This document shows, in pieces, positions 1 to 23,896 of a DNA stretch of 56,154 nt (the stretch's first letter is position 1; every line of letters begins with the position of its first letter). Origin of the DNA: Candidatus Elulimicrobium sp. (lineage in GTDB: Bacteria > Omnitrophota > Gorgyraeia > Zapsychrales > Fredricksoniimonadaceae); NCBI GenBank assembly GCA_020720365.1, contig DYOU01000002.1:26903-83056 (forward strand). Direction: 5' to 3'. The translations under genes and the position numbers were made by a program. A model generated the notes under the pieces. That model had not been told where the DNA came from. It ran no database searches and saw only the letters and a list, made by a program, of their open reading frames with translations.

Positions 1-55
1 GCCAGACAGATGGATCGGCGAAGGAAGCAGTGGCCAGGGCTAAAGCTGAAGCAGA
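1..55 (+). repeat. 55-bp perfect direct repeat, copy 1
   Basis: Bases 1-55 are identical to bases 526-580, a spacing of 525 bases or exactly 175 codons, in the same reading frame of the coiled-coil gene. Identity at the DNA level, including third codon positions, points to recent duplication or gene conversion within the repeat region. Confidence 0.9.
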
Positions 56-3000
56 AGCTCAGGTCAAGGCGGCGCAGGAGAATGCAGCGGCAGCGATCTC
101 GGAAGCTAAAGCGGAAGCAGAGGCTTCCATTGTTAAGGCGCAAAAAGAGTCCGCCGCAAAGGCGGATCAGTTACAGCGTGATCTGACGGCAAAGGTCACA
201 CAGACAGATAGTGCCGCGAAGGAAGCGGAAGCTCAGGCTAGAGCGGATGCTGAAGCAGTTGTGGTGAAAGTGAAGGCCGATGCTAATGGGAAGATTGATC
301 AATTCCAGAAAGCTTTGGCTGAGGCCAAGGCATTGAAAGTACAAGCAGAAGCACAGGCGCAGGAGAAAGTGTCTTTTGCGCAGGCCGAAGCGAAGCGTCA
401 GATAGAGCAAGCAAAGGCAGAGGCTCAAAAGAAGGTGCTGTTAGCAGAGAGTCAGTTGGCGGGAGTGAAAGAAGTGTCAGCGGTAAAGTTGAATCAGATG
501 CAGAGTGATCTGACAGCGAAGCTTAGCCAGACAGATGGATCGGCGAAGGAAGCAGTGGCCAGGGCTAAAGCTGAAGCAGATGCAGCGATGGTTAAAGTGA
601 AGGCGGAGGCAGCAGCACTTTTATCTCGTGAACGGGATGATCATACAGCCAAGATAGGTTCACTTGAAAAATTGTTAGCTCAGGAGCGTTCATTAAAAGC
701 ACAGGCAGATGCGCAAATTCAGCAAAAGGTATCACAGGTGCAGCAAGAAGCAAGGAGTCAAGTCGAACAAGTTAAGGTAGATGCGCAGCAGAAGGTCTTG
801 GCGGCTGAAACTTTGTTAGCCAAGGTTAGACAAGATTCCGATGTGAAACTTAATCAGCTGCAGGGGGATATGACGGCGAAGGTAAGTCAGACAGATGTTT
901 CTGCCAAGGAGTTACTAGCGAAAGCTAAAGCGGATGCGGAGGCTTCGGTTATCAAAGTGAAAGCAGAGGCAGAGTCTTTGCTTATTCGTGAACGTACGGA
1001 TTCCGCAGAAAAGATAAGTTTATTGGAAAAGTCTTTAGCTCGGGAACGTTCATTAAAGGCGCAGTTAGAGTCTCAGGTTCAAGAGAAAGTAGGACAGATT
1101 CAAGCGGAAGCGAAGAGGCAGGTGCTGGTCGCAGAGAGTTCTTTAGCGAAGTCTAAAGCAGAGGCTGAGGTAATGAGCGCTCAGGAAATTGCCAATGCAA
1201 CGGCAAAGATCAGTCGCCTAGAAAGCTCTCTGGCTGAAGCGAAGGACCTGGTTATGAAGGCTCAAGTTCAGGCGCAGGCAAAAGTTGAACAGTCGCAGGG
1301 TAGCTCAGCCCAAAGAATCAGCATTTTAGAAAAAGCGTTGGTGGATGCTAGACGGCAATCTGAACAAGCCAAGTCGGAATCAGAGAGGATCCATCAGGTT
1401 AAATCAGAGCTGCAGGCGCGAGCTATTAAAGCAGATACAGCGGCTAAAGAGTTGATCGCCAAGATAAAAGAGGATGCGGATATTCAGGTTAAGACGGCTC
1501 AGGAAAAAGTAGCTGCTGCTTTAACGGCAGCTAAAACAGAAGCTCAGAGGGATGCTCAGCACAGGATCGCTTCATTGGAAGAGTTATTGGCAAAGTCAAA
1601 AGAAGAAGCGGAGATGAAGTTGAATCAGTTGCGGCAGGACCTGACGGTTAAAGTTTCTCAGACGGAAGGTTCATCGCAACAGGTTACAGCTAGGGTTAAA
1701 GCTGAAGCGGCGGCGGCTGTTGCAAAAGCGAAAGCGGAGGCGGAGTCGATGGTTGCCACCGTTCGTTCGGACGCGGCCGCCAAGACAGCTCAGTTTGAAA
1801 AGTCTTTGGCGGAAGCCAGGGAGGCGCTGCTTCATGTGAAAGAGGAATCGTCAGCAATGTTAAGAAAGGCTCAAACAGGCGAAGCGGCAAAGTCGGCGGC
1901 GTTTGAAAAGAATATCAGCGAACGGGAAGCACTGCTCAAGCAAAAAACGTCTATGATGCAGGGTTTATTGGCAGAAAAATCGCAGTTGGAAAAATCTTTG
2001 GCTGAAACGCAGTCTGCTTTAAAACAAAAAATTGATATATCGTCTTCTGAGTTGACGAAAGAAAAAGAGGGTATGTTGATTAGAGTGAAAGACCTGGAGA
2101 ATCAATTGCGAGCGAGTGAAATCCTGGCAGAATCGAAGTTAAAGCAAACGGCAGTGCCTTTGAAGGATAAGATCGCTTTCCTGGAGAATCAATTAGACCT
2201 ATCACAGAAGTTATATACAAATCAGGAAGCTTTAGTGAAAGATATGGTGGCTAAGAGAGATGAGTTGATGAAAGGTATTTCTGATACTGAAAATGAACGG
2301 CAAATGTTAAAAGTTCGTGTGACGACTTTGGAAAATAAATTAGCAGAAGCTGAGACTGTCCTGCCGGCGCGTTTAGCGCAGGCTAAGGCGCCTGTAGAGG
2401 TTAAGTCTGCCCAGCAACAGGCGGAGATCGCTCGTTTAAGCGGCTTGTTAACGGGAAAAGAACAATCAGCGACGGCATTGCGTCAGGAGAAAGAACAGCT
2501 GTCAGGAGCTTTAGCTGTATTGCAAAAGAACAAAGCCTTACTGGACAAGAAGTTTTCCGAAAGTGATGCGCAATTAAAATTGTTTCAGGCTTCAATTAAT
2601 CAGCGTATTGAGGAGGCTCGCTATCCTTTAGAGGAGACGCTCAGGTCTTTGGAAAAGAATCTTTTTGAGAAAGATACTGCTTTAAAAGATAAAGACGCGG
2701 AACTTTTGCGTATTTCCAAAGAACGGAATGCGTTAATGAACCAGGCTTCACAAGTTGAGGATGCGCGTAAGAATATGGAAGCCAAGCTGGCTTTGTTTGA
2801 AGCGCAGAATAAAGATCTTTCTATAGCGGTGGCCGACAAGATTGCTTTGGCAAAAGAACCTCTGGAGAAGGAGTTGTTGATGGTAAAAGAGCAGTTGAAG
2901 AATGCCCAGTCCAGCGCTCAGGAAACATTAGCGCAGGTTAAGGGTGGATGGGATTCCCGGATTAATGATCTTTCACAGAAGTTGGAAGTGAATACACGGC

Positions 3001-3881
3001 TGTTAGCAGAGAAAGAACGTGCGTTCTCAAAGCTTGCCGCTGAACAGTCTGATTTGAAACGCAGCTTGGAATTAGCCTTAAGTGATAAACAGCTTGTTGA
3101 AGCGGATCTTACGAACTTTAATGATTCTATTAAGTTAAAAGATGTACAGTGGATGGCAAAATTAAAGGAGAGTGAAGCCCAATGGCAATCTAAAGTGGCG
3201 GCTTTACAGGAAGAATTGGGGGGATTAAAGAAGTCTTTTGATAGTCAGGTTTCACAATCTCGAGCTGGGGTTGAAGATAAACTGTTTATTTTGGAGAAGT
3301 CTCTTAAAGAAAAAGAAATGCAGCTTCGTGATCGGGAGTTGTCTTTGTCACAGGCTCATTTAAGGTTGGAGAGCCTGGAAAAAGATCTGCAGCTGCTTAA
3401 GGAGGATCGTTCTTCTGTAGAAGAGGATTTGAAGGGGCGGTTTAATGCGGCTGAGATAGCATTGAAAGAGAAGGAAGATCGCTTGAAAGTTGTTCAGAAA
3501 AATACAAAAGATCTTTTACAGGGGAAGGAAAGTATTGCTTCTGAATTGGCATCTTTAAGGGTGGAGAAGGCCAGGCTTGAAGCTCAGTTGGCGCAATCTG
3601 AAAAGGCAATGGCCTTAGCCCAGGGAGGTGCGCAGCAGCAGCTTCAGCAGAAAGATCAATCTATTCGCGGATTAACGGAACAGGTGTCACAGTTAAATCA
3701 GATCAAGTCAGGGGTTGAAGCCCAGAACAGTTTATTAAAGGTTAAGATTGAAGAATTGGAAGGGACATTGAAAGAAAAAGAGTCAAGCCTTGGTCAGATC
3801 GAAGAACAGTCGACTTCCAAAGAAGAGTATCTTAAGGCAGTGCAAGATGAACTTCAAGGCGCGATGGAGCTTATTAAGTAG
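1..3881 (+). CDS. Giant coiled-coil protein, 5' end outside window (partial)
   Basis: The reading frame is open from the first complete codon (base 3) to the stop at 3879-3881, so the gene begins upstream; the GTG at 30 is just an internal valine codon. About 1290 residues are visible and all of them look alpha-helical and coiled-coil. The first half (to about residue 640, counting from base 30) is rich in Ala/Lys/Glu with recurring AKAEAEA-like runs and a returning QTDGSAKEA-like block. The second half is a more classical Leu/Glu/Lys coiled coil with four evenly spaced prolines (710, 788, 866, 944). I see no cysteine, very few aromatics, no membrane segment and no enzymatic motif. It ends 14 bases before the wecA-like gene and may be co-transcribed with it. 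A structural or scaffolding role is inference; the family is not recognised. Confidence 0.85.
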   Translation, partial: QTDGSAKEAVARAKAEAEAQVKAAQENAAAAISEAKAEAEASIVKAQKESAAKADQLQRDLTAKVTQTDSAAKEAEAQARADAEAVVVKVKADANGKIDQFQKALAEAKALKVQAEAQAQEKVSFAQAEAKRQIEQAKAEAQKKVLLAESQLAGVKEVSAVKLNQMQSDLTAKLSQTDGSAKEAVARAKAEADAAMVKVKAEAAALLSRERDDHTAKIGSLEKLLAQERSLKAQADAQIQQKVSQVQQEARSQVEQVKVDAQQKVLAAETLLAKVRQDSDVKLNQLQGDMTAKVSQTDVSAKELLAKAKADAEASVIKVKAEAESLLIRERTDSAEKISLLEKSLARERSLKAQLESQVQEKVGQIQAEAKRQVLVAESSLAKSKAEAEVMSAQEIANATAKISRLESSLAEAKDLVMKAQVQAQAKVEQSQGSSAQRISILEKALVDARRQSEQAKSESERIHQVKSELQARAIKADTAAKELIAKIKEDADIQVKTAQEKVAAALTAAKTEAQRDAQHRIASLEELLAKSKEEAEMKLNQLRQDLTVKVSQTEGSSQQVTARVKAEAAAAVAKAKAEAESMVATVRSDAAAKTAQFEKSLAEAREALLHVKEESSAMLRKAQTGEAAKSAAFEKNISEREALLKQKTSMMQGLLAEKSQLEKSLAETQSALKQKIDISSSELTKEKEGMLIRVKDLENQLRASEILAESKLKQTAVPLKDKIAFLENQLDLSQKLYTNQEALVKDMVAKRDELMKGISDTENERQMLKVRVTTLENKLAEAETVLPARLAQAKAPVEVKSAQQQAEIARLSGLLTGKEQSATALRQEKEQLSGALAVLQKNKALLDKKFSESDAQLKLFQASINQRIEEARYPLEETLRSLEKNLFEKDTALKDKDAELLRISKERNALMNQASQVEDARKNMEAKLALFEAQNKDLSIAVADKIALAKEPLEKELLMVKEQLKNAQSSAQETLAQVKGGWDSRINDLSQKLEVNTRLLAEKERAFSKLAAEQSDLKRSLELALSDKQLVEADLTNFNDSIKLKDVQWMAKLKESEAQWQSKVAALQEELGGLKKSFDSQVSQSRAGVEDKLFILEKSLKEKEMQLRDRELSLSQAHLRLESLEKDLQLLKEDRSSVEEDLKGRFNAAEIALKEKEDRLKVVQKNTKDLLQGKESIASELASLRVEKARLEAQLAQSEKAMALAQGGAQQQLQQKDQSIRGLTEQVSQLNQIKSGVEAQNSLLKVKIEELEGTLKEKESSLGQIEEQSTSKEEYLKAVQDELQGAMELIK
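526..580 (+). repeat. 55-bp perfect direct repeat, copy 2
   Basis: This is the second copy of the sequence at 1-55. It encodes the QTDGSAKEAVARAKAEA block. Related but diverged blocks begin near residues 58 (QTDSAAKEA), 287 (QTDVSAKEL) and 543 (QTEGSSQQV), so it belongs to an irregular repeat family with spacing of about 110-120 residues at its tightest. Confidence 0.9.
2157..2861 (+). repeat. Four 78-residue coiled-coil repeats marked by proline
   Basis: Counting from base 30, prolines 710, 788, 866 and 944 are exactly 78 residues apart. Each sits in a similar setting: a small or basic residue, then Pro, Leu or Val, an acidic or basic residue, then a heptad-like run ending in a Leu-x-x-x-Leu pattern (VPLKDKIAFLENQL, APVEVK, YPLEETLRSLEKNL, EPLEKELLMVKEQL). 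The next period (around 1022) lacks the proline, although weaker relatives follow near 973 and 1080. Confidence 0.7.
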
Positions 3882-3895
3882 AGAGGGAATGGCGC

Positions 3896-4966
3896 ATGCT
3901 GGCATCCTATAAGTATTTATGGGGAATGATGGGGGAATTCCTTGAGCCTTTTGGAATGGGCTTTATGCTCGTTCTTCTCTTAACGCCGGTCATGATCATT
4001 ATTGCGAACAAGTTTGGTATATTGGATCAGCCGTCTGCGCGTAAGATCCATCATCAGCCAGTTCCTCGCTTGGGAGGCCTGGGGATCATTATTGGCTTCT
4101 GGGTGGTAGCTTCTTTTCATTTGCCTTTATCGAAACAATTCTGGGCGATCCTGGTTGGTGGGACGATCGTTGGCCTGATGGGGGTAGCGGACGATATACG
4201 CCCTCTTTCATCACGTATTCGCTTGATGGGTCAGTTGGTAGCTTCTTTTATTGTTATGTCGTCGGGATTAATGGTGTCGTTTTGTCCAAAAGAGTGGTGG
4301 GGCGTGTTGTTGGCCGGGGTCATTACTATTATTTGGATCCTTGGGATCGTTAATTCGGTTAATTTTGCAGATGGGCTTGATGGTCTTGCCACGGGGATGG
4401 TAGGGATATCTACAGTATTTTTCTTTTTGATCGCGTCTTATTTGCGTCAGGTGGATGTGGCCCTGATAGCGGCCATTCTTGTGGGATCCTGCGTCGGTTT
4501 TCTAGTTTATAATTTTAAGCCGGCCAAGATATATTTAGGGGATGGCGGTAGTACTTTTCTTGGATTTATTGTGGCGTGTATTGCTTTATACGGTGGTTGG
4601 TCGGCCGATGGTTTTGTTGTTGCGCTGGGTGTCCCTACTATTATTCTCGGGGTTTTGATCTTTGATATGATCTATATTACGGTCGCGCGGATCAAGAATG
4701 GGTCTGTGCGTTCGTTCAGGCAGTGGATGGATTTTACAGGGAAAGACCATTTCCATCATCGTTTGTTAAGTCTTGGATTTACTGAAGTAGGGGCTGTGAG
4801 TTTGATCTATTTGATTCACGTTGTTTTGGGGTTAAACGTCTTGGTTCTTGAAAAATTGAGGAATCCTTTAGTAGTTTTTATTATGGGAGTGCAGTCTTTT
4901 CTGGTTTTTCTGATTATTTTACTTTTGATGCGGGTTGGCCGAGGAATATCGGAGAAAAAGGTATAA
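3896..4966 (+). CDS. WecA/TagO-type polyprenyl-phosphate sugar-1-phosphate transferase
   Basis: Glycosyltransferase family 4 of the MraY/WecA superfamily (356 aa, usual length, about ten membrane helices). It would transfer a sugar-1-phosphate, often HexNAc-1-P, from a UDP-sugar to undecaprenyl phosphate at the inner membrane and so start the lipid-linked glycan. Visible signatures: DQPSARKIHHQPVPRLGG (44-61), the VADD aspartates (98-100), NFADGLDGLA (156-165), LGDGGS (214-219) and the WecA-type HFHHR (285-289). The HHR motif favours WecA/TagO over MraY, and there is no mur/fts context. The start at 3896 follows a GA-rich stretch; ATGs at 3926 and 3929 are possible alternatives. It heads the polysaccharide operon. 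The exact sugar cannot be read from sequence. Confidence 0.92.
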   Translation: MLASYKYLWGMMGEFLEPFGMGFMLVLLLTPVMIIIANKFGILDQPSARKIHHQPVPRLGGLGIIIGFWVVASFHLPLSKQFWAILVGGTIVGLMGVADDIRPLSSRIRLMGQLVASFIVMSSGLMVSFCPKEWWGVLLAGVITIIWILGIVNSVNFADGLDGLATGMVGISTVFFFLIASYLRQVDVALIAAILVGSCVGFLVYNFKPAKIYLGDGGSTFLGFIVACIALYGGWSADGFVVALGVPTIILGVLIFDMIYITVARIKNGSVRSFRQWMDFTGKDHFHHRLLSLGFTEVGAVSLIYLIHVVLGLNVLVLEKLRNPLVVFIMGVQSFLVFLIILLLMRVGRGISEKKV

Positions 4967-4968
4967 AA

Positions 4969-5991
4969 ATGAAGAGGGAGATCACTGTTCGGACATTTAG
5001 ATTTTTAGTGACTCAAGGGGTGATCCTTATCGGGATCATGTTCGCTTTTTTGGTTTTAGCTTGTTTCTTTTTTGTCCGGAATGCTACGCATTGGCATGTA
5101 GCGAATATTGAACAGGATCTCAAAGTTTTTGCTGAACAAGCGGAAAGGTCTGCCGAGGTCCCTAAAAGAGGTGATTTGGGGGCGTATACATTTTTTATTT
5201 TGAATACAGAAGGAAAATATGTACTGCCGCGATTGCCTCGTTCAGATGAGAGTGAGAAAGTTTGGCAGGAATATGAGCTGAAGATCATTTATGAGATGCA
5301 GAAACGCCGTGAAGGTTGGAGTTATTATCCGGAACGCGGCCGTTGGGATTTCAGGAATGGCCGCTATATGCTGCGGTATCTATATTTACCGAATATGGGA
5401 TGGATCGTGGCGGGTGAGGGATATTTGCCAGGAGTTCTTGTTTTGCTGGAAGAGATGCTGACTCCTGCTCTGTTCATTGGTATGGGCTTGATCGCTTTGG
5501 CCGCCTTTGTTTTTATGCTGATCAATGCCAATTGGCATTTTCATCGGGTGATTCGAGCGATCCTGCGGTCACAGGAAAATAATTTTATTGCCGTTGACGG
5601 GATACCCCCTTCAGTCAAGAAAGATCCTCGTACTTTATTCAGAGCAGAAGACCGCCTGCCTGCGATGAGTGAAGCCGATGGAATAATCCGTGGCCCCTCT
5701 CGCCGTTCCTTCTCTGCGGCGGTTGAAGACTTACCAGAAGAGCACGGGGCTGCCGTATCGCGGATAGAAGAGCCGCGACGGCCTTCATCGGTTCCGGTGA
5801 AGCTGGAGCCTCGCATCTCCGTATCTCCTCAGGAGGCCAGCAAGGCTGAACAAAGAGTTTCAGTTTTGTTAAAAGAGGAACCACCGCATCGCCGGGAAGT
5901 TCTGGGGGCTGTTCCGATCGACACTAGCGATATCCGTTCGCCGATCCTTCGTCGGGCGATCGAAGAGTTGAGAGAGGTAAAAAATAAATAA
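4969..5991 (+). CDS. Two-helix membrane protein with Cache-like periplasmic domain
   Basis: A 340-residue protein with a first membrane helix at about 14-35, an extracytoplasmic domain at about 38-160, a second helix at about 164-186 and a low-complexity, Pro/Arg/Glu-rich cytoplasmic tail to residue 340. The domain has features seen in small Cache sensor domains: a W-x-Y-Y segment (117-120), then W-D-F-R-N-G-R-Y and a hydrophobic strand ending GWIVAGEGYL (144-153). No HAMP, kinase, GGDEF or methyl-accepting domain follows, so any output must go through the tail or through a partner such as the neighbouring ATPase or HD-GYP protein. It starts 3 bases after the wecA-like stop and overlaps the next gene by one base. 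The Cache assignment is by pattern only. Confidence 0.65.
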   Translation: MKREITVRTFRFLVTQGVILIGIMFAFLVLACFFFVRNATHWHVANIEQDLKVFAEQAERSAEVPKRGDLGAYTFFILNTEGKYVLPRLPRSDESEKVWQEYELKIIYEMQKRREGWSYYPERGRWDFRNGRYMLRYLYLPNMGWIVAGEGYLPGVLVLLEEMLTPALFIGMGLIALAAFVFMLINANWHFHRVIRAILRSQENNFIAVDGIPPSVKKDPRTLFRAEDRLPAMSEADGIIRGPSRRSFSAAVEDLPEEHGAAVSRIEEPRRPSSVPVKLEPRISVSPQEASKAEQRVSVLLKEEPPHRREVLGAVPIDTSDIRSPILRRAIEELREVKNK

Positions 5992-6815
5992 TGTATACTC
6001 AACATTGGAATCTTTATGAGAAGCCTTTTGAGTTAACTCCGGATCCGAAGTATGTTTATTATTCAAAGGCGCATGAAGAAGCTTTGTTGAGGCTTATTTA
6101 TACGGTTCGGGATGCCAAGGGAGCTATGATGCTTACAGGAGCTTATGGCTGCGGTAAGACGGTATTGAGTCGGGTTTTTTTGAATGAAATGGTTGGCGCC
6201 AGCCGTTTTGAAGTAGCCTTGATCACCAATCCCCGGTATAACGCCAAGGAACTGCTGATTGAAATCATTTATCAGTTGGGGGGAGAGCGCCATGATTACA
6301 AATCCAAGGGAGAGCTTTTACATCTTTTTAATGATATTATCTATCGGAACCTTGAGATGCATAAGGAGACGGTGATCGTGATCGATGAGGCTCAGGCGAT
6401 CGAGGATCTGGAAACGTTTGAAGAGTTGCGGCTGTTGTTGAATTTTCAGCAGAATAATCGTTTTCTGATAACCTTGGTCCTTATTGGTCAACCTGAACTG
6501 AGGCTTCGCCTGAAACAACTGCCGCAGTTGAAGCAGCGGCTTATTATTGAGTATCATTTAAATCCTCTCGACGAAAAAGATTGTATGCAGTATATTGACC
6601 ATAGGCTGCGTATCGCCGGAGCTCAGAAAGAGATCTTTGATCCGAAGGCCAAGAAGCTGATCTTTAAATATTCTTCAGGGATCCCCCGGGTGATCAATGG
6701 GATTGCCGATATTTCTTTATTAGTAGGGCTTTCAGAAGGCCGGACAGTTGTTGATGAACAATTGGTGGAAAAGGTCGTTCAGAATGGGCAAATGGAGACG
6801 TCATGGTCCGCTTGA
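5991..6815 (+). CDS. ExeA/GspA-like AAA+ ATPase (exosortase-locus type)
   Basis: A 274-residue AAA+ ATPase: Walker A GAYGCGKT (50-57), Walker B VIVIDEAQ (128-135), sensor-1 strand LVLIGQPEL (162-170) and the following LKQRL arginine. The N-terminus (WNLYEKPFELTPDPKYVYYS) is typical of the ExeA/GspA family and of the secretion ATPase found in many exosortase/PEP-CTERM exopolysaccharide loci. Unlike full-length ExeA there is no membrane helix or peptidoglycan-binding C-terminus. It overlaps both neighbours (1 base upstream, 13 bases downstream), placing it firmly in the operon. The role, energising or gating export, is inferred from context. No exosortase or PEP-CTERM protein is seen in this window. 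Confidence 0.85.
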   Translation: MYTQHWNLYEKPFELTPDPKYVYYSKAHEEALLRLIYTVRDAKGAMMLTGAYGCGKTVLSRVFLNEMVGASRFEVALITNPRYNAKELLIEIIYQLGGERHDYKSKGELLHLFNDIIYRNLEMHKETVIVIDEAQAIEDLETFEELRLLLNFQQNNRFLITLVLIGQPELRLRLKQLPQLKQRLIIEYHLNPLDEKDCMQYIDHRLRIAGAQKEIFDPKAKKLIFKYSSGIPRVINGIADISLLVGLSEGRTVVDEQLVEKVVQNGQMETSWSA

Positions 6816-7897
6816 TCAATATCATTAAACAGAATTTAAAGAAGCCAGCATCAGCACAAGAGCCTTTATTAGCGCCAGTGCCATTGGTGGCATCGAATCC
6901 GGAAGAGCAGTTTAAAGAGAATCCTTTTCGCAAGAAGGTTGTGTCAGCTCAGGATGAAAAGAGGGCCAAAGCCAAGTCCGGAGGAGATCTTAAAGAGGTT
7001 TATTTTCTGGTCCATAGTGCGGCACGGCTTGCGTTCGATCAGATCTTGCATAAGGATAAGATTACGGAAGCGATCATTCGCGTAGCGGATATCTTTGAAG
7101 CCGATCCGTATAGTGAATTATTACTAATGGGGTACTCTTTTTCAAAGAAAAGTTATCTTCCTGCGCATATTACCAATGACGTGATCTTTACTGTTGCTTT
7201 TGCCCGCTCACTGGGTTTTGAGAGGGCGGAAGTGATTGGCCTGGGGATCGCTGCGTTCTGTCATGACCTGGGGATGTCGAATTTTGAGGGAATATCCAAG
7301 AAAGGCCAGCAGTTGACGCAGCAGGAGATCGAGGATATCAAACAGCATCCCTTGCGTTCGGCAGAGCTTGTGCGTCCGGTTTTTTCTGAGACGATCGCAG
7401 CGGTGGTGATGGATATTCATGAGAGGGAGAACGGTCAGGGTTATCCCCGGGGGATTCCGGCTGTCCAGATCCATCTTTGGGCCAAGATCATCGCTGTAGT
7501 CGATACCTTTGAAGCTTTGACGCATCCTCGGGTGTTCCGTTCGGCGTATAGTCCGTATGAAGCCATGAAGATGATCATTAAAAAGAAGGATATTCTTTTT
7601 GATGATGTGGTGGTTAAAAGATTCATTGATTTTATGTCGATCTACCCTGTTGGAGCCTTGGTAAATCTTAATAGCGGGGAAGTGGCGATTGTGGTAGGCA
7701 GTCATGCGGGCTCACCAACAAGGCCTTTGGTCAAGGTAGTCATTAATGAGAACCGGGAGATCGAAGAGAATGGAGTATTGATCAATTTGGTTGAGAGGGA
7801 ATTTGTTTATATCACGGGGGCTGTTGAGCCCGATAAAGAAAAAGAACTGTTGTATTTTCTTAAACCACGCGGACTGGTGGATCTCGATGAGGTGTAA
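6803..7897 (+). CDS. HD-GYP domain protein with degenerate signature
   Basis: A 364-residue cytoplasmic protein: a charged, probably flexible N-terminus (1-60), then an HD-GYP module (about 65-300) and a C-terminal beta-rich segment. HD-GYP proteins normally hydrolyse c-di-GMP or cGAMP at a binuclear or trinuclear iron centre. Visible ligands: His122, His154-Asp155, His182, His206 and Asp234, followed by the AVVDTFEALT helix. The usual HHExxDGxGYP reads I-H-E-R-E-N-G-Q-G-Y-P (205-215), so the first His of the pair and the Asp are replaced. Activity may be weakened, or the protein may act as a nucleotide sensor. The ATG at 6803 is preceded by GGAGA and overlaps the ATPase gene by 13 bases, implying coupling. 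Confidence 0.88.
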   Translation: MVRLINIIKQNLKKPASAQEPLLAPVPLVASNPEEQFKENPFRKKVVSAQDEKRAKAKSGGDLKEVYFLVHSAARLAFDQILHKDKITEAIIRVADIFEADPYSELLLMGYSFSKKSYLPAHITNDVIFTVAFARSLGFERAEVIGLGIAAFCHDLGMSNFEGISKKGQQLTQQEIEDIKQHPLRSAELVRPVFSETIAAVVMDIHERENGQGYPRGIPAVQIHLWAKIIAVVDTFEALTHPRVFRSAYSPYEAMKMIIKKKDILFDDVVVKRFIDFMSIYPVGALVNLNSGEVAIVVGSHAGSPTRPLVKVVINENREIEENGVLINLVEREFVYITGAVEPDKEKELLYFLKPRGLVDLDEV

Positions 7898-8765
7898 AAG
7901 ATTTTTATTATTTTTTATGTCAGTTATGCTGGTGGTGTCGATCTTGTTCAGCGGCATGCCTCTGGCGGCAGAAGCTCCGCAGCCGTTGAGCGTGAATGAA
8001 GCAACGCGCCAGACAATGATCACCGAATACGGGAAAGATATTATGGCAAAAAGTGCGGCTGCCCTCAATCCTCAGCCGCCAGTTCAGCAGAATTATGACA
8101 GGGAGCGGGATCAGATCGCGAATCAGTTGACGCTCTTTACAGAGAATGAAGATATCAAATACATTATTGTTGAAGGGGATACACTGACGATCAGTTATAA
8201 GGACCGGGATCAGATCAGTCGTGCGGCTTATAAAGTCTCTGAAACAGGAGAAATATTTGTTCCTGTGTGCGGGAGTATAAAAGTGGCAGGGCTCAATCGC
8301 CGTCAGGCGAGGGAGCGGGTGGAGATGATGCTGAAGGAATATATTCGGGATCCGCGGGTATTAATATCGATCAATACCGATGGAAAAGTTATGATCTTTG
8401 GCGCGGTCTTGAGCCCGGGCGTTCTTGAGATCAGGCCTAAGTGGACGGTGTTGGAAGCGATACTGTCTTCTGGCGGGTTTAATCGGCAGACGGCGGAATT
8501 GGCTAGTGTTATTGTTATGCGAGGGCCTATGGAGAAACGTTCAATGTTAAAGTTGAATTTGAAGAAGCTGGTCACTAAAGGGGATGCCAGCGATAATATA
8601 TTCATTAAGCCGGGTGATTTTGTATATGTTCCGATGACGTTGATCAGTAATCTGGATGCCTTCTGGGGCACTATGTCCAAGTATCTGATGTGGTGGTATG
8701 GTTTAGGTGGCGGTCAGCCTGTCGTGAACGGGAATGATTGGAATTATGGAGGATTACCAAAATAA
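7887..8765 (+). CDS. Wza/BexD-like polysaccharide export protein
   Basis: A 292-residue outer-membrane polysaccharide export protein. Residues 1-30 form a signal peptide (basic MRCKR, hydrophobic core, LAAEA end); there is no convincing lipobox, unlike classical Wza. The polysaccharide export domain starts near VEGDTLTISYK, and one or two SLBB-like domains follow (GEIFVPVCGSIKVAGL, VMIFGAVLSPGVLEI, LEAILSSGGF), ending in the IKPGDFVYVP strand. ATG 7887 was chosen over an upstream in-frame start at 7791 because it begins directly at the signal peptide and has AGGT-like sequence around it. It overlaps the HD-GYP gene by 11 bases and the next gene by 1 base. It probably forms the outer-membrane exit for the polymer. 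Confidence 0.9.
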   Translation: MRCKRFLLFFMSVMLVVSILFSGMPLAAEAPQPLSVNEATRQTMITEYGKDIMAKSAAALNPQPPVQQNYDRERDQIANQLTLFTENEDIKYIIVEGDTLTISYKDRDQISRAAYKVSETGEIFVPVCGSIKVAGLNRRQARERVEMMLKEYIRDPRVLISINTDGKVMIFGAVLSPGVLEIRPKWTVLEAILSSGGFNRQTAELASVIVMRGPMEKRSMLKLNLKKLVTKGDASDNIFIKPGDFVYVPMTLISNLDAFWGTMSKYLMWWYGLGGGQPVVNGNDWNYGGLPK

Positions 8766-10990
8766 TGGAACAGTCTTATGAAGTCCCGTTATCAGAGTAT
8801 TGGCGCATTTTAAAGAAAAGAAAAGTAACGATCATGGCTGTTTTTACGGCAGTCGTGATGGCGACGGTAGTCTTTACTAAAATGCAAACCCCTGTTTATC
8901 AGGCTTCGATAGACCTTAAAGTAGACAGGAATGCTCTTTTTGAGAAGGATGCGGCAGCGGCCAGCGCTGGAGGGAAATCTCTTGACCTGGGGACGGAGAT
9001 GCGTATTTTTAAAAGCCTCAATGTCCTTTCTAAAGTGGTTGAAAAAGTAGAAGTGCTTCCTTTGGGAACCACTGAGCGTATGCAGGCGCTTAACTCATTG
9101 GCGTTAAGCTATCAGAACCGTATCAGTGTTGAACAGATCCCGGATACGACCATCATTATTATTCGCGCTACGGCGGAAAGCCCGGAGAAGGCCTCTTTGC
9201 TGGTGAGTGCTGTGGCGGATGTTTATATTAGTGAGAATACCCATGGCAAACGCCGTCAGCTGGATTCTGTGCTGAAGTATATTGATACACAGCTGGAGGA
9301 TTATAAAAAACAATTATCAGAGCTTGAAGGGCGTTTGTTGAAGTTTAAACAGGACGAGAAAGTCTTTACGGTTACGCCTGAAGTCAAGGCTAATTTGGAT
9401 CGTGTGGGCGTAGAACGGACGTTTGATTTTGAAAATGAGATGTTAAAGATAGATGGGGATATCAAAGAGTTGGCAGAGATCCTTGATACCAAGAAGCAGA
9501 ATGGTTCGCTGAAGGTTCTTTCTTCAGAGGAATTATCGAATAATTTTATTTTTATCGGACTTAAGCGCAGGCTTTTACAGCTGGAATTTGAACGATTCCT
9601 TTTATTGGTCGACTACACTGAAAAACATCCTGTTGTTATTGAAAAAGATCAGATTATCGCGGATACAAAGAACCGTATGGTTGAAATGATCAAGGATCAT
9701 TCTACCGGGCCGTATGATGCGGATATGGATGCGGATCTTTCGATGGTTGTTAAAAAGCTTTTTCTGGAGAGTCGGAGGGAAGTGTTGTATCGGACGATTA
9801 ATCGTTATTATAGCGATGAAGGATCTCTTTCGGTGAATCAGCGCGATTATATAAGCATGACCCGTGAGCAGGAGAGGATCGTTACAGCGTATAACACGTT
9901 GTTGACCAATAAAGAAGAAACGCGTTTATCGATGGCAAAGGTCGATGGGCAGACGGTCACGGTGGTTTCACAGGCTTCGGCCGGGAAAGACCCCATATCT
10001 CCCAAAGCCAGTATGAATTATCTGGTCAGTATTCTTGCCGGTATTGTTCTGGGAATGATGGCGTGTTTTCTGCAGGAGAGTATGGACACGACGATCAGTA
10101 CTATTTCGGATGTGGAGCATAAGCTGAATCTTTCTGTATTGGGGATCATTCCGATGATGAAGATGGACGACAACGCTATTCTGTCTGAAGAATCCCCTGA
10201 AAAAGTGGTGCCTAAGATCGATACGCTGGTGACATTGTATGAGCCTCGTTCCTGGTTGTCGCAGAGTTTCAAGATCCTGCGTGCCAACCTGCTACAGGTT
10301 CTTAAGCCGAATGATAAAAAAATCGTTCTGTTTACAAGCTCTGAACAGCAGGAAGGTAAATCCACAGTGATTGCGAACGTGGCTATTTCCATGGCTCAGA
10401 TGGGGAAGCGGACGCTGTTGGTCGAACTAAATCTGCGCCGGCCTACCTTATATAAACGCTTTGGCCTGAAGCGGGAACCGGGGATGACGGATGTCCTGCT
10501 GGGTAAAGTAAATTGGCAGGAAGCGCTGAAGACGCCGACGGATATTATTGCCGGGGGCTTGGATATTGACCGGCTTCTTAAAATGCCGGGGCTTGATAAC
10601 TTGCGCGTGATCACGGCAGGCCATTCGATCGACAATATTTCTGAACTGTTGAATTCTTCAAAGTTTGAAGAATTTATGGCGGATGTCCGGAAGCATTTTG
10701 ATATTGTGCTGATGGATTGCCCTCCGGTGCTGCCGGTTCCTGATGCCATGACGATGGGGTGCCGTGTGGATGGTGTTGTGATGATCTACAAGGTTGGCAA
10801 GACCTCTAGGGATATGCTGAAAATGGCCAAGTCTCGTCTGGAGCATGCCAATACGCGTATTTTAGGGATTGTATTGAATCAGATCAAGGCTGAAGAACAG
10901 GTAGGGGCTAGTGCGTATCATTTTCGTGAGTATGTTGAAACTAAGCCTAAAGGACCATTTGCTGCCGCTGACTGGTTTTTCAAAGGATAG
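8765..10990 (+). CDS. Wzc-like chain-length determinant / BY-kinase-type ATPase
   Basis: A 741-residue inner-membrane co-polymerase. An N-terminal Wzz domain (first helix at about 22-42), a long periplasmic coiled-coil region (about 150-400), a second helix near 420-440 (YLVSILAGIVLGMMACFL), then a cytoplasmic P-loop domain from about 500. Walker A is SSEQQEGKSTV (about 525-535) and Walker B is VLMDCPP (about 649-655). The Walker A' motif, normally D-x-D-x-R, reads E-L-N-L-R (554-558), so both aspartates are changed. The C-terminus has only two tyrosines rather than a dense Tyr cluster. ATG 8765 overlaps the wza-like stop by one base and was preferred to 8738. It would control chain length and export, but kinase activity is doubtful. 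Confidence 0.9.
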   Translation: MEQSYEVPLSEYWRILKKRKVTIMAVFTAVVMATVVFTKMQTPVYQASIDLKVDRNALFEKDAAAASAGGKSLDLGTEMRIFKSLNVLSKVVEKVEVLPLGTTERMQALNSLALSYQNRISVEQIPDTTIIIIRATAESPEKASLLVSAVADVYISENTHGKRRQLDSVLKYIDTQLEDYKKQLSELEGRLLKFKQDEKVFTVTPEVKANLDRVGVERTFDFENEMLKIDGDIKELAEILDTKKQNGSLKVLSSEELSNNFIFIGLKRRLLQLEFERFLLLVDYTEKHPVVIEKDQIIADTKNRMVEMIKDHSTGPYDADMDADLSMVVKKLFLESRREVLYRTINRYYSDEGSLSVNQRDYISMTREQERIVTAYNTLLTNKEETRLSMAKVDGQTVTVVSQASAGKDPISPKASMNYLVSILAGIVLGMMACFLQESMDTTISTISDVEHKLNLSVLGIIPMMKMDDNAILSEESPEKVVPKIDTLVTLYEPRSWLSQSFKILRANLLQVLKPNDKKIVLFTSSEQQEGKSTVIANVAISMAQMGKRTLLVELNLRRPTLYKRFGLKREPGMTDVLLGKVNWQEALKTPTDIIAGGLDIDRLLKMPGLDNLRVITAGHSIDNISELLNSSKFEEFMADVRKHFDIVLMDCPPVLPVPDAMTMGCRVDGVVMIYKVGKTSRDMLKMAKSRLEHANTRILGIVLNQIKAEEQVGASAYHFREYVETKPKGPFAAADWFFKG

Positions 10991-10991
10991 G

Positions 10992-12440
10992 ATGCGTATA
11001 GGACAGGCTCCTGTGGCTATGGTGGCGGCGGTTGCGGTCATGGCCGCTTTCTGTTTGTTTTTTGGTTATTTTATTTCAGTGGCTCCGGCTCAATTTCCGT
11101 TACTGGCGGTGGTTGGGCTTTTTGTTTTCGTATTGGCTTTCTTCAGGATGGATGTTGCCCTTGTGCTGTTGATTATTGCGATGCTTTTCTCTCCTGAGAT
11201 ATCAGCGGGAAGCCTTTCTCGCAGCAGAGAGATTGCGATTCGTATTGAGGATTTTCTGATTGTTATATTGGCAATGGCTTGGTTTGCCCGGGCGGCGGTA
11301 CATAAGAATGCTGAGGTTATCCCGAAGACGGCGGTGAACGGATGGGTGGGGCTTTATTGTGCGGCCTTTTTTATTTCGACGGCGAACGGGATCATTACTT
11401 CGCATGTGAATCCGCTTAAAGCATTCTTTTATATTTTAAAATACCTCGAATATTTTATTTTGTTTTATTTAGCCGCCGGGACGATACACAGCAAGAAGAA
11501 TCTGTATGTGTATTTGGCTGCTTTATTGATCACTTTTGCCTGTGTAAATATTTATGCATCGGGGCAAGTCCAGCTTACAGGACGTGTGTCGGCCCCTTTT
11601 GAGGGAGAGGTGGGAGAGCCTAATACTCTGGGCGGTTATCAGATGCTCATGCTTTGTGTTACCTTGGGCCTTTTTTGTCATGCGCGTACCAGAAAAATGA
11701 GTTTACTTCTAGGGATCCTGGCGGTCTCTACACTTTGGCCGTTCCTTAATACATTATCCCGAGCGTCGTATATGGCGCTTGTTCCTGCGTATTTAATGTT
11801 GATCATTTATAATCGGTCACCGAGAAAGAACCTCTTGATTATTGTTTTCCTGTTGTCTGTAGTAGCGGCGGGATTGTTTATGCCCCAAAAGGTCAGGGAT
11901 CGTATCGCTTATACGTTCAAGCCGCAGTATCAGGAGACGATCAAGACTGTAGAAATTATGGGGATCAAGCTGGATCCATCATCTTCAGCGCGCTGGAATG
12001 ATTGGGAGAGGGCGATCTATAAATGGAAGAAAGCGCCTTTCTTTGGTTATGGATTGACCGGAACTTCATTTATCGATGGCCAGTATATTAATAATCTGAT
12101 CGAGCTTGGAGGGGTCGGTTTTATTTCATTCGCGATCCTCATTTGGGGAATGCATAGGGAGGTTCTACGAGTTTATCGTGGTTCGGATGATTGGGTAGTT
12201 CAAGGGCTTTCGCTCGGTTTTGCGGCAGGGAATATTGGGATTCTTTTTCATGCCGTCACGGCTAATACGTTTATCCTGATCCGGATCATGGAGCCTTATT
12301 GGTTTATGGCGGCGATGATCTTGATCTATCCGCGGTTGGAAGGCAGTACCATGCCGTTAACGTCAAAGATGTCCGGCAGACGCAATATCGATATGGTTCT
12401 TGGAGAGACAGGCGTCAGCCGGCCGGTAGACGCGACATAG
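10992..12440 (+). CDS. O-antigen ligase/polymerase-like (Wzy/WaaL superfamily) membrane protein
   Basis: A 482-residue protein with about 11-12 membrane helices and a large extracytoplasmic loop. The loop segment SSARWNDWERAIYKWKKAPF, the following GYGLTG and the NNLIELGGVGF helix are typical of the O-antigen ligase/Wzy_C superfamily, as is LSRASYMALVPAYLML before it. Such proteins polymerise lipid-linked repeat units or ligate finished glycan to an acceptor; sequence alone does not separate the two. ATG 10992 follows AAAGGATAG just after the upstream stop and starts at the first helix, so it is better than 10911, which would overlap the kinase gene by 80 bases. Confidence 0.88.
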   Translation: MRIGQAPVAMVAAVAVMAAFCLFFGYFISVAPAQFPLLAVVGLFVFVLAFFRMDVALVLLIIAMLFSPEISAGSLSRSREIAIRIEDFLIVILAMAWFARAAVHKNAEVIPKTAVNGWVGLYCAAFFISTANGIITSHVNPLKAFFYILKYLEYFILFYLAAGTIHSKKNLYVYLAALLITFACVNIYASGQVQLTGRVSAPFEGEVGEPNTLGGYQMLMLCVTLGLFCHARTRKMSLLLGILAVSTLWPFLNTLSRASYMALVPAYLMLIIYNRSPRKNLLIIVFLLSVVAAGLFMPQKVRDRIAYTFKPQYQETIKTVEIMGIKLDPSSSARWNDWERAIYKWKKAPFFGYGLTGTSFIDGQYINNLIELGGVGFISFAILIWGMHREVLRVYRGSDDWVVQGLSLGFAAGNIGILFHAVTANTFILIRIMEPYWFMAAMILIYPRLEGSTMPLTSKMSGRRNIDMVLGETGVSRPVDAT

Positions 12441-22970: not shown

Positions 22971-23896
22971 AGCCAAAGATCAGTGTGATCATCCCTACGT
23001 TTAATCGATCTAACCTTGTTCGTCGGGCTATAGACAGTGTCTTGGCTCAGACGTATCGGGATTTCGAATTGCTCGTTGTTGATGATCACTCTCCTGTTCC
23101 GGTGGCAGAAGCTTTGACGGGGATCAGTGACCCCCGATTACATTTGATCCGTCATGAAAAGAATTCAGGAGCACCAAAAGCGCGTAATACAGGGATCATT
23201 CAGTCATGCGGTGAGTATGTATCTTTGCTTGATGATGACGATGAATTCCTTCCGCAGTATTTAGAGCGTCTTATGGCCAAGTTGAGCCAGTGTCCTTTAC
23301 GGACAGGGGTTGTTCATGGGGGCATCCGTTTTCTTGGGGCGGGAGGAGAAGTGATCCAGGAGTCTCTTCCGAAACTGAAGGGTAATATCCGCAGTCATTT
23401 ATTACGCGGAGAAAAAGATTCTAATGTGATGGGCCTCGTTCGTCGTCAGTGTTTTACTGATGTTGGATTGTTTGATGAGCAACTGTCGAGTTGTCAGGAT
23501 TGGGATATGTGGTTAAGGATATCTGAACAGTATGATTTTGACATTTTGGAAGAGGTTGTTGCATTGTATCATTGTCATGGTGCGCAGTTGTCGAGTGATT
23601 TTCGTTCATTGATCAGGGGGAGAACTCGAATGATCGAAAAACACCGGGCTTTGTTCGCGCAGGATCCGCAGGCATTGATCATTCATTTAAAGCGTTTAGG
23701 AAAGCTGCACGCGCTTAATGGCACATGGAAGGATTCATGGCACTGGTTTTCGGAAGTTGCGGCTATAGACCGGGTGGAAGTGTTCAAGGTCATTGCGTGG
23801 TTGTTATGGGATTACCCCTATGCAAAGTGGGTTTCTCCGGTCAAGGGGTTCCGTACATATCATGATATGCCTTTGGCCTTCCAGGAGAAACGATGA
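22967..23896 (+). CDS. Glycosyltransferase family 2 (GT-A)
   Basis: A 309-residue inverting GT-A enzyme. The nucleotide-binding strand is SVIIPTFNRSNLVRRAIDSV, with VVDDHSP, the DxD region LLDDDDEF (about 85-92) and the acceptor-side motif QDWDMWLR. The start is GTG 22967 overlapping the previous TGA. It has no membrane segment, so it acts at the cytoplasmic face. It overlaps the next gene by four bases. Confidence 0.9.
   Translation: MKPKISVIIPTFNRSNLVRRAIDSVLAQTYRDFELLVVDDHSPVPVAEALTGISDPRLHLIRHEKNSGAPKARNTGIIQSCGEYVSLLDDDDEFLPQYLERLMAKLSQCPLRTGVVHGGIRFLGAGGEVIQESLPKLKGNIRSHLLRGEKDSNVMGLVRRQCFTDVGLFDEQLSSCQDWDMWLRISEQYDFDILEEVVALYHCHGAQLSSDFRSLIRGRTRMIEKHRALFAQDPQALIIHLKRLGKLHALNGTWKDSWHWFSEVAAIDRVEVFKVIAWLLWDYPYAKWVSPVKGFRTYHDMPLAFQEKR

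Follow-up and report, generated by a model that had tools for sequence, protein, structure and literature searches.

A giant, apparently exported coiled-coil gene and its small partner beside a predicted polysaccharide export locus in an Omnitrophota genome

The locus

The window (the whole stretch of DNA analysed here, 56,154 nucleotides of a Candidatus Elulimicrobium genome of the phylum Omnitrophota; G000:C59:26903-83056) starts directly after a 100-N scaffold gap and inside the 3' part of a giant coiled-coil gene, referred to below as the rod gene. A wecA-type gene follows after 14 bases and opens a run of genes, the sugar set, that extends through a Wzy-type gene (Table 1). Directly before the rod gene, on the same contig and upstream of the window, lies a small gene with an exported-looking product, P0. 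The pairing of P0 with the rod is the stronger and the newer fact; the position of the rod in front of wecA is the second, and is conserved among the closest relatives of the locus. (Relatives are referred to by genome number, G, and their loci by L.)

Table 1. Features of the rod gene, its upstream partner and the sugar set (window positions unless a locus is named)
Feature	Position	Strand	Basis or remark
P0, small exported-looking gene, 340 amino acids (aa)	L002:14878-15900		upstream of window, same contig, directly before rod
Giant coiled-coil (rod) gene, 3' part, 1,292 aa	1..3881	+	open frame, helical periodicity
Three consecutive 78-residue repeat units	2136..2792	+	repeat hidden Markov model (HMM)
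Repeat unit 1 (partial)	2136-2315	+	22.8 bits
Repeat unit 2	2328-2558 (= G000:C59:29230-29460)	+	43.7 bits; also found by profile search of genome contigs
Repeat unit 3	2568-2792	+	41.8 bits
Conserved C-terminal tail of rod (ELQGAMELIK)	3849..3878	+	tail motif
Spacer between rod gene and wecA, 14 bases	3882..3895	+	no terminator or promoter-like element seen
WecA-type glycosyl-1-phosphate transferase	3896..4966	+	Glycos_transf_4 PF00953, 122.3 bits vs cut-off 27
Membrane protein, Cache-like sensor domain, disordered linker, conserved C-terminal tail	4969..5991	+	alignment, AlphaFold2 (AF2), Foldseek
XrtA/PEP-CTERM-associated-type ATPase (ExeA-like AAA)	5991..6815	+	AAA_22, 83 bits; TIGR03015
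HD-GYP-like protein, altered signature	6803..7897	+	HD_5 PF13487, 79.5 bits; alignment
Wza-type polysaccharide export protein	7887..8765	+	Poly_export PF02563, 57.7 bits; TIGR03027, 93.6 bits; SLBB
Wzc-type chain-length/tyrosine-kinase protein	8765..10990	+	TIGR01007, 143.7 bits, above cut-off; Wzz, 40.2 bits; GNVR
Wzy/O-antigen ligase-type membrane protein (listed start; true one may be later)	10911..12440	+	Wzy_C PF04932, 48 bits

The rod gene and P0

A first-pass annotation of this DNA had described a giant cysteine-free coiled coil ending 14 bases before a WecA-type gene, and so it does; what the window shows, however, is only the 3' part of a much larger gene. The frame is open from window base 3 and has no 5' end there; the gene starts 3.5 kb upstream, at contig base 23392 (L002:15893). 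On the parent contig, which belongs to a metagenome-assembled genome, it consists of open pieces of 880, 223 and 1,292 aa, with two 100-N gaps of nominal size between them, across which the reading frame is presumed to continue; the total of at least 2,396 aa (a gene of at least about 7.2 kb plus gaps) is a lower bound. Divergent direct DNA repeats of 62-147 nucleotides flank both gaps (window 1-3881 and L002:15893-19701) and are probably why the assembly is broken at this gene.

Every piece is devoid of cysteine, and the part in the window contains 5 prolines and 16.5% alanine. The hydrophobic pattern of the whole known gene peaks at a helical period of 3.62 residues, with a ratio of 2.91 where none of 20 shuffles exceeded 1.51, consistent with assembly as a coiled coil. 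The N-terminus carries a hydrophobic stretch that, judged by eye, resembles a signal peptide, as do the N-termini of the relatives' rods (also by eye), and these N-termini suggest that the protein is exported. Neither an adhesion domain nor an enzyme domain was found by Pfam-type family search in the rod parts scanned; an SLH domain was likewise not matched in window:30-3878, L002:15893-18500 or P0, a scan outside which lie the 223-aa piece and both gaps.

The 5' end of the rod gene overlaps P0 by 8 bases. P0 was out of sight of the first-pass annotation, which linked the rod to the genes downstream; the conserved partner is P0. In its AF2 model a beta domain (residues 29-106) is joined by a linker of low confidence to a single long helix (230-339). 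The Foldseek matches of P0 are generic barrels, F1-ATPase domains among them, and none reaches E 1e-3. A profile made from an alignment of nine P0 proteins matches 19 of the 81 genomes of the order at 1e-6, reduced to 18/81 when G398 was dropped (its sole coiled-coil frame is SMC-like), and 16 of 384 genomes across the phylum at 1e-8. The 19 P0 loci examined are the 18 in the order and that of G297; G264, matched at E 7.7e-9 in a frame of 1,341 codons, is outside them. A rod open reading frame (ORF) follows P0 directly in 16 of the 19, at spacings from overlap to 19 bases; as to the other three, P0 is fused to a helix in G392, and the loci of G028 and G297 end with the contig. A phage tape-measure origin was rejected, since two rod parts and P0 have no PHROGs match and P0 is unmatched in the phage collection. 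The module is apparently undescribed: no account of this family was found in searches of the open PMC literature, a scope that leaves subscription journals and preprints outside.

A family of rods with conserved ends

Among the rods readable in full, with both a signal-like start and a stop codon, those beside the sugar set have 5,134 (G058), 4,119 (G009), 3,730 (G015) and 1,687 aa (G071), and those away from it 3,913 (G035), 3,426 (G057), 3,115 (G047), 598 (G400) and 262 aa (G050). The family thus ranges from 262 to 5,134 aa, its largest gene being 15.4 kb (G058). With 0 to 3 cysteines per protein these rods are nearly but not always cysteine-free. As a straight single helix, the computed length is about 250-770 nm in G071, G015, G009 and G058. 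The width of the periplasm is far below this, so that a periplasmic rod would need to run along the surface or fold back.

The middle of the longer rods is repetitive. Sequence self-identity peaks at lag 78 in G009 and G058 and at lag 156 in G015, and proline pairs nine apart (P-x8-P) number 26 in G058, 27 in G015 and 16 in G009, against shuffle means of 0.95, 1.23 and 0.79. The core of the 78-residue unit, in majority residues, is [LIV]-P-x-K-[LIV]-x-x-A-K-x-P-L. An HMM trained on units of these same rods, with its cut-off of 32 bits set by the reversed-rod maximum of 31.6 bits, finds 29 units in G058, 26 in G015, 13 in G009 and 3 in the rod of the window; none was counted in the 27 reversed rods. 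Searched as a profile, the unit has two places in the window's own genome, and at 1e-8 it matches 24 of the 81 genomes of the order, some of the rods standing in other neighbourhoods (the matches in G039 and G050 were left out of closer examination, save P0 of G050). The rod of the window's species is a partly different, alanine-rich version with few canonical units.

The ends are better kept than the middle. Within the window's family the N-terminal part aligns over about 220-420 residues at 26-48% identity. The C-terminal tail motif occurs in 13 of 20 readable C-termini by regular expression, and in G009 by eye; among the 20 it is absent from G003, G033, G038, G052, G063 and, strictly, also G050. 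Of these, G033, G038, G052 and G063, which share the repeat and not the tail, may be merely similar coiled coils. Conserved ends joined by a very variable middle, often of 78-residue helical repeats, are what a tether or fibre, rather than an enzyme, would be expected to show.

Position of the rod before wecA

Close orthologues of the sugar-set ATPase (E up to 1e-95) are present in 10 of the order's 81 genomes; across the phylum, 25 of 384 sampled genomes have one at 1e-85. A long coiled-coil ORF stands directly upstream of wecA in eight of the ten (the window's genome, G004, G006, G009, G015, G058, G061 and G071); G049 has none within 8,967 bases upstream of wecA, and the contig of G020 starts inside wecA, which makes it eight of nine readable loci. 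At control loci of more distant ATPases, no coiled-coil ORF of at least 300 aa is found upstream in 11 at 37-45% ATPase identity or in 14 at 49-55%, with the upstream sequence short in some (611 to 3,689 bases in L040, L041, L031, L039, L030 and L020). One of three control loci at 60-63% identity (G151) has a 317-aa ORF, without a signal-like N-terminus. The neighbourhood comparison that the first-pass annotation had proposed thus bears out conservation of the coiled coil directly upstream of the set, and a chance neighbour in the window's genome alone was rejected on the contrast between 8/9 close and 0/25 distant loci. The ORF upstream of wecA in G236 (L031:2-373) looks P0-like by eye; its best BLAST E is 0.33 and it is not among the profile matches.

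Gene order within the set is constant in the close loci. P0 occurs in 18 of the 81 genomes, the set in 10 and both in 8 (Fisher p 4.7e-5, kinship not corrected for). The close loci are spread over three families within a single order and hence are not independent events. The adjacency is nevertheless kept in families f1 and f5 while genes farther upstream vary: G071 has SurE and an HD-GYP regulator there, whereas the window's genome and G009 have MntP and a DNA-alkylation-type gene. Continuity from P0 to wecA was read directly only in G009, G015, G058 and G071, and is gapped in the window's genome.

Rods also stand in other company. In G047 and G063 an HD-GYP regulator precedes the rod and metabolic genes follow it, in G401 an M17 peptidase comes next, and in G035 and G057 the rod is followed by weakly Cache-like and weakly Wzc-like proteins, the latter with 20-23% Wzc similarity and Pfam GNVR below cut-off in one, nothing in the other. 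Rod or P0 genes at L087, L090 and L071 lie near genes of pilus or type II secretion system (T2SS) type: T2SSF and PilM in G008, T2SSE in G400 and, by eye, a prepilin-like gene in G392. This suggests that rods may also serve pilus/T2SS-type loci.

Signals between rod and wecA

Terminator-like hairpins with T-rich tails follow the rod stop codon in G004 (-28.7 kcal/mol), G009 (-32.2) and G015 (-25.3); that of G009 goes unlisted in a scan limited to loops of at most 8. After the hairpin and before wecA, the same three genomes have a promoter-like element TTGAC-N15-GTCAA, and G006 has a copy with one change and no such hairpin. The element is conserved as TTGAC-N15-GTCAA(AAT) at L010:7512-7539 (minus strand), L011:11802-11829 and L012:11841-11868, with the one-change copy in the L009 spacer, and is absent from the window. 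A stricter form of the pattern, sought at 94 loci, returns only G004, G009, G015 and copies of these records. TTGAC-N15-GTCAA could serve at once as a -35 box and as an operator. The spacers of G058 (345 bases) and G061 (191 bases) have TTGAC hexamers and no strong hairpin; that of G071 is 10 bases long. In the window, 14 bases leave no room for a terminator or promoter between rod and wecA.

Rod module and sugar set therefore look, on these sequence signals, like separate transcription units in several relatives, and the window's species may have joined them by losing the spacer. A terminator together with a separate promoter between rod and wecA is what the first-pass annotation had named as evidence against its own proposal; terminator-like and promoter-like sequences are found there in relatives, although not in the window itself.

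The sugar set

The first-pass annotation noted a nearly gapless run of Cache-like, ExeA-type ATPase and HD-GYP genes, which holds: wecA and the Cache-like gene are 2 bases apart, the ATPase gene overlaps the latter by 1 base, and the HD-GYP gene overlaps the ATPase gene by 13. The run goes on beyond 7897, where that view ended, through Wza (overlapping the HD-GYP gene by 11 bases), Wzc and the Wzy_C protein to 12440, and an ABC exporter pair and glycosyltransferases lie downstream of the Wzy-type gene. From its gene content the locus is assigned to exopolysaccharide or O-polysaccharide export.

Some of the family assignments are looser than others. WecA satisfies Glycos_transf_4 and reaches 98.8 bits with TIGR02380 (ECA_wecA), under the cut-off of 326. 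The Cache-like protein has no Pfam or NCBIfam match; its AF2 model (pLDDT 72.7) has best Foldseek matches to Cache/chemoreceptor structures at E 4e-3 to 1e-2, none at 1e-3, which makes the Cache label plausible. Beyond its disordered linker, a C-terminal motif around IDTxxIxSPxLRKxIEExR is conserved, and through it the protein may dock to one of the other products of the set. The ATPase scores 219.5 bits over the full length of TIGR03015, below the curated cut-off of 324.5, and is related to that family, not a member; a PDB sequence search with it gave nothing at 1e-5, and the notion of an "ATPase motor" finds no support.

The signature of HD-GYP phosphodiesterases acting on cyclic di-GMP (c-di-GMP) is HDxGK and HHExxDGxGYP. 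The protein of the set retains HD, HP, HE and GYP, but 10 of 10 aligned rows have Met at the position of the signature Lys and Ile/Val at that of the first His. Because of the two altered positions c-di-GMP hydrolysis is not to be assumed, and the second-messenger control foreseen in the first-pass annotation is uncertain.

The sole exosortase match of the window's genome is on another contig (G000:C193:345-1118; PF09721 over cut-off). Exosortases were found in 10 of 14 genomes searched, and none in G006, G009 or G015, all of which have rod and set.

Interpretation

The reading that we favour, and to which as a whole we give a probability of about 45%, is that rod and P0 form an exported two-gene module, an envelope fibre or scaffold that organises or anchors the polysaccharide made and exported by the adjoining WecA-to-Wzy set. 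On this reading the ORF in the window would be the C-terminal portion of a giant alpha-helical rod, apparently exported through Sec, and P0 its small, exported-looking companion with beta domain, linker and long helix. The rod would form a long fibre, either periplasmic or at the surface, with its ends docked to envelope machinery, P0 at one of them. In the window's species expression of the sugar set would probably depend on read-through across the 14-base spacer. A role as an envelope or surface rod is likely; a link to the sugar set is probable, as judged from conserved position.

Several facts weigh against the whole. Ten of the 18 genomes with P0 lack this sugar set; the set occurs without a giant rod in G049 and G151 (possibly also in G142 and G236, where there is little upstream sequence); and G001-G003, of the window's own genus, lack the ATPase of the set at the orthologue threshold. 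In G003 the rod is reduced to a 284-aa stub (L080:2229-3083), 48% identical over 289 columns to the N-terminal part of the rod of the window's genome and in the same genomic place, after the same small gene and MntP, with neither P0 nor the sugar set; rod length thus extends within one genus from at least 2,396 down to 284 aa. Canonical repeat units are scarce in the rod of the window, and the rods of G004, G006 and G061 are each divided between two contigs. Some rods, finally, stand near T2SSE, T2SSF and PilM genes (G400, G008), which fits a role not tied to polysaccharide.

The alternative nearest to the first-pass annotation is that rod, WecA, Cache protein, ATPase and HD-GYP protein are encoded in a single operon and work as a single envelope apparatus that assembles glycan. 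Spacers of 14 bases in the window and 10 in G071, the adjacency in 8/9 readable close loci and the constant gene order of the set would all suit it. The hairpins of G004, G009 and G015, the promoter-like element before wecA there and in G006, and the occurrence of rods without the set and of the set without rods speak against a single transcription unit or apparatus, and we regard it as unlikely. That annotation had itself called the link one of position only, which is how matters stand: the adjacency is conserved, and a functional link can be proposed from it.

The proximity of rods to T2SSE, T2SSF and PilM genes in G400 and G008 recommends another view, in which the rod is a fibre that attaches the cell to host or prey, or one associated with pili, and stands near sugar genes only because both are used at the surface; giant Omnitrophota ORFs have been proposed as adhesins (PMC10066038). 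No adhesion domain was found in the rod parts scanned, and adjacency to the sugar set is far commoner than in control loci, which makes this view less likely again. A bolder generalisation of the docking idea is a long shot: P0 and an exported coiled coil of species-specific length would be an undescribed envelope system that spans two conserved docking ends as a tape measure or an unbroken tether, and that polysaccharide export has recruited in some lineages and pilus/T2SS-type loci in others.

Simple inherited synteny, with rod module and sugar set neighbours in an ancestor of two families and without common function, would account for the separate regulation signals in relatives, for the free loss of either module and for close loci drawn from three families of a single order; since adjacency persists in f1 and f5 though the genes farther upstream differ, it seems improbable. 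That the rod is a ruler, fixing how long a polysaccharide or another polymer of the surface grows, we consider highly improbable, for all its conserved ends and freely variable middle, its position beside Wzc and Wzy genes and the precedent of WbdD, a coiled-coil protein regulating O-antigen chain length (PMC3482155), because rods also occur without these genes and vary so widely in length within one genus.

Comparison with known systems

The same kinds of gene lie side by side in XrtA/PEP-CTERM-type exopolysaccharide loci (TIGR03015, TIGR03027, TIGR03007/TIGR03018), and the best family matches of the window's ATPase and Wza are PEP-CTERM-system models, all under their curated cut-offs. The window's genome differs in having its exosortase on another contig (G000:C193), and the XrtA/PEP-CTERM system as described is not known to include rod or P0.

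Omp-alpha of Thermotoga and SlpA-type connectors are exported coiled-coil rods that bridge envelope layers and carry an SLH domain and an outer-membrane anchor. The rod differs from them in that its scanned parts and P0 give no SLH match, and in a straight length many times the width of the periplasm. WbdD is a cytoplasmic kinase/methyltransferase whose coiled coil reportedly acts as a ruler. The likeness to the rod is that of a coiled coil tied to polysaccharide length (PMC3482155); the difference is that the rod appears to be exported and that its scanned parts gave no match to an enzyme domain.

If the favoured fibre were a tether, or if the rod were after all a ruler, its variation in length across species would be a natural experiment on the way in which bacteria build long cell-surface structures. 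Omnitrophota are described as mostly uncultured, very small and rich in giant genes of unknown use, with giant ORFs above 20 kb, many with predicted transmembrane helices and some proposed as adhesins (PMC10066038; the word "coiled" is absent from its main text). One kind of giant gene becomes testable when it can be recognised as a family by its conserved ends, repeat, partner gene and recurring neighbourhood. The rod shares phylum and giant size with the ORFs described there, and is distinguished from them as a coiled coil with a signal-like N-terminus whose genes, at up to 15.4 kb, stay under the 20 kb criterion.

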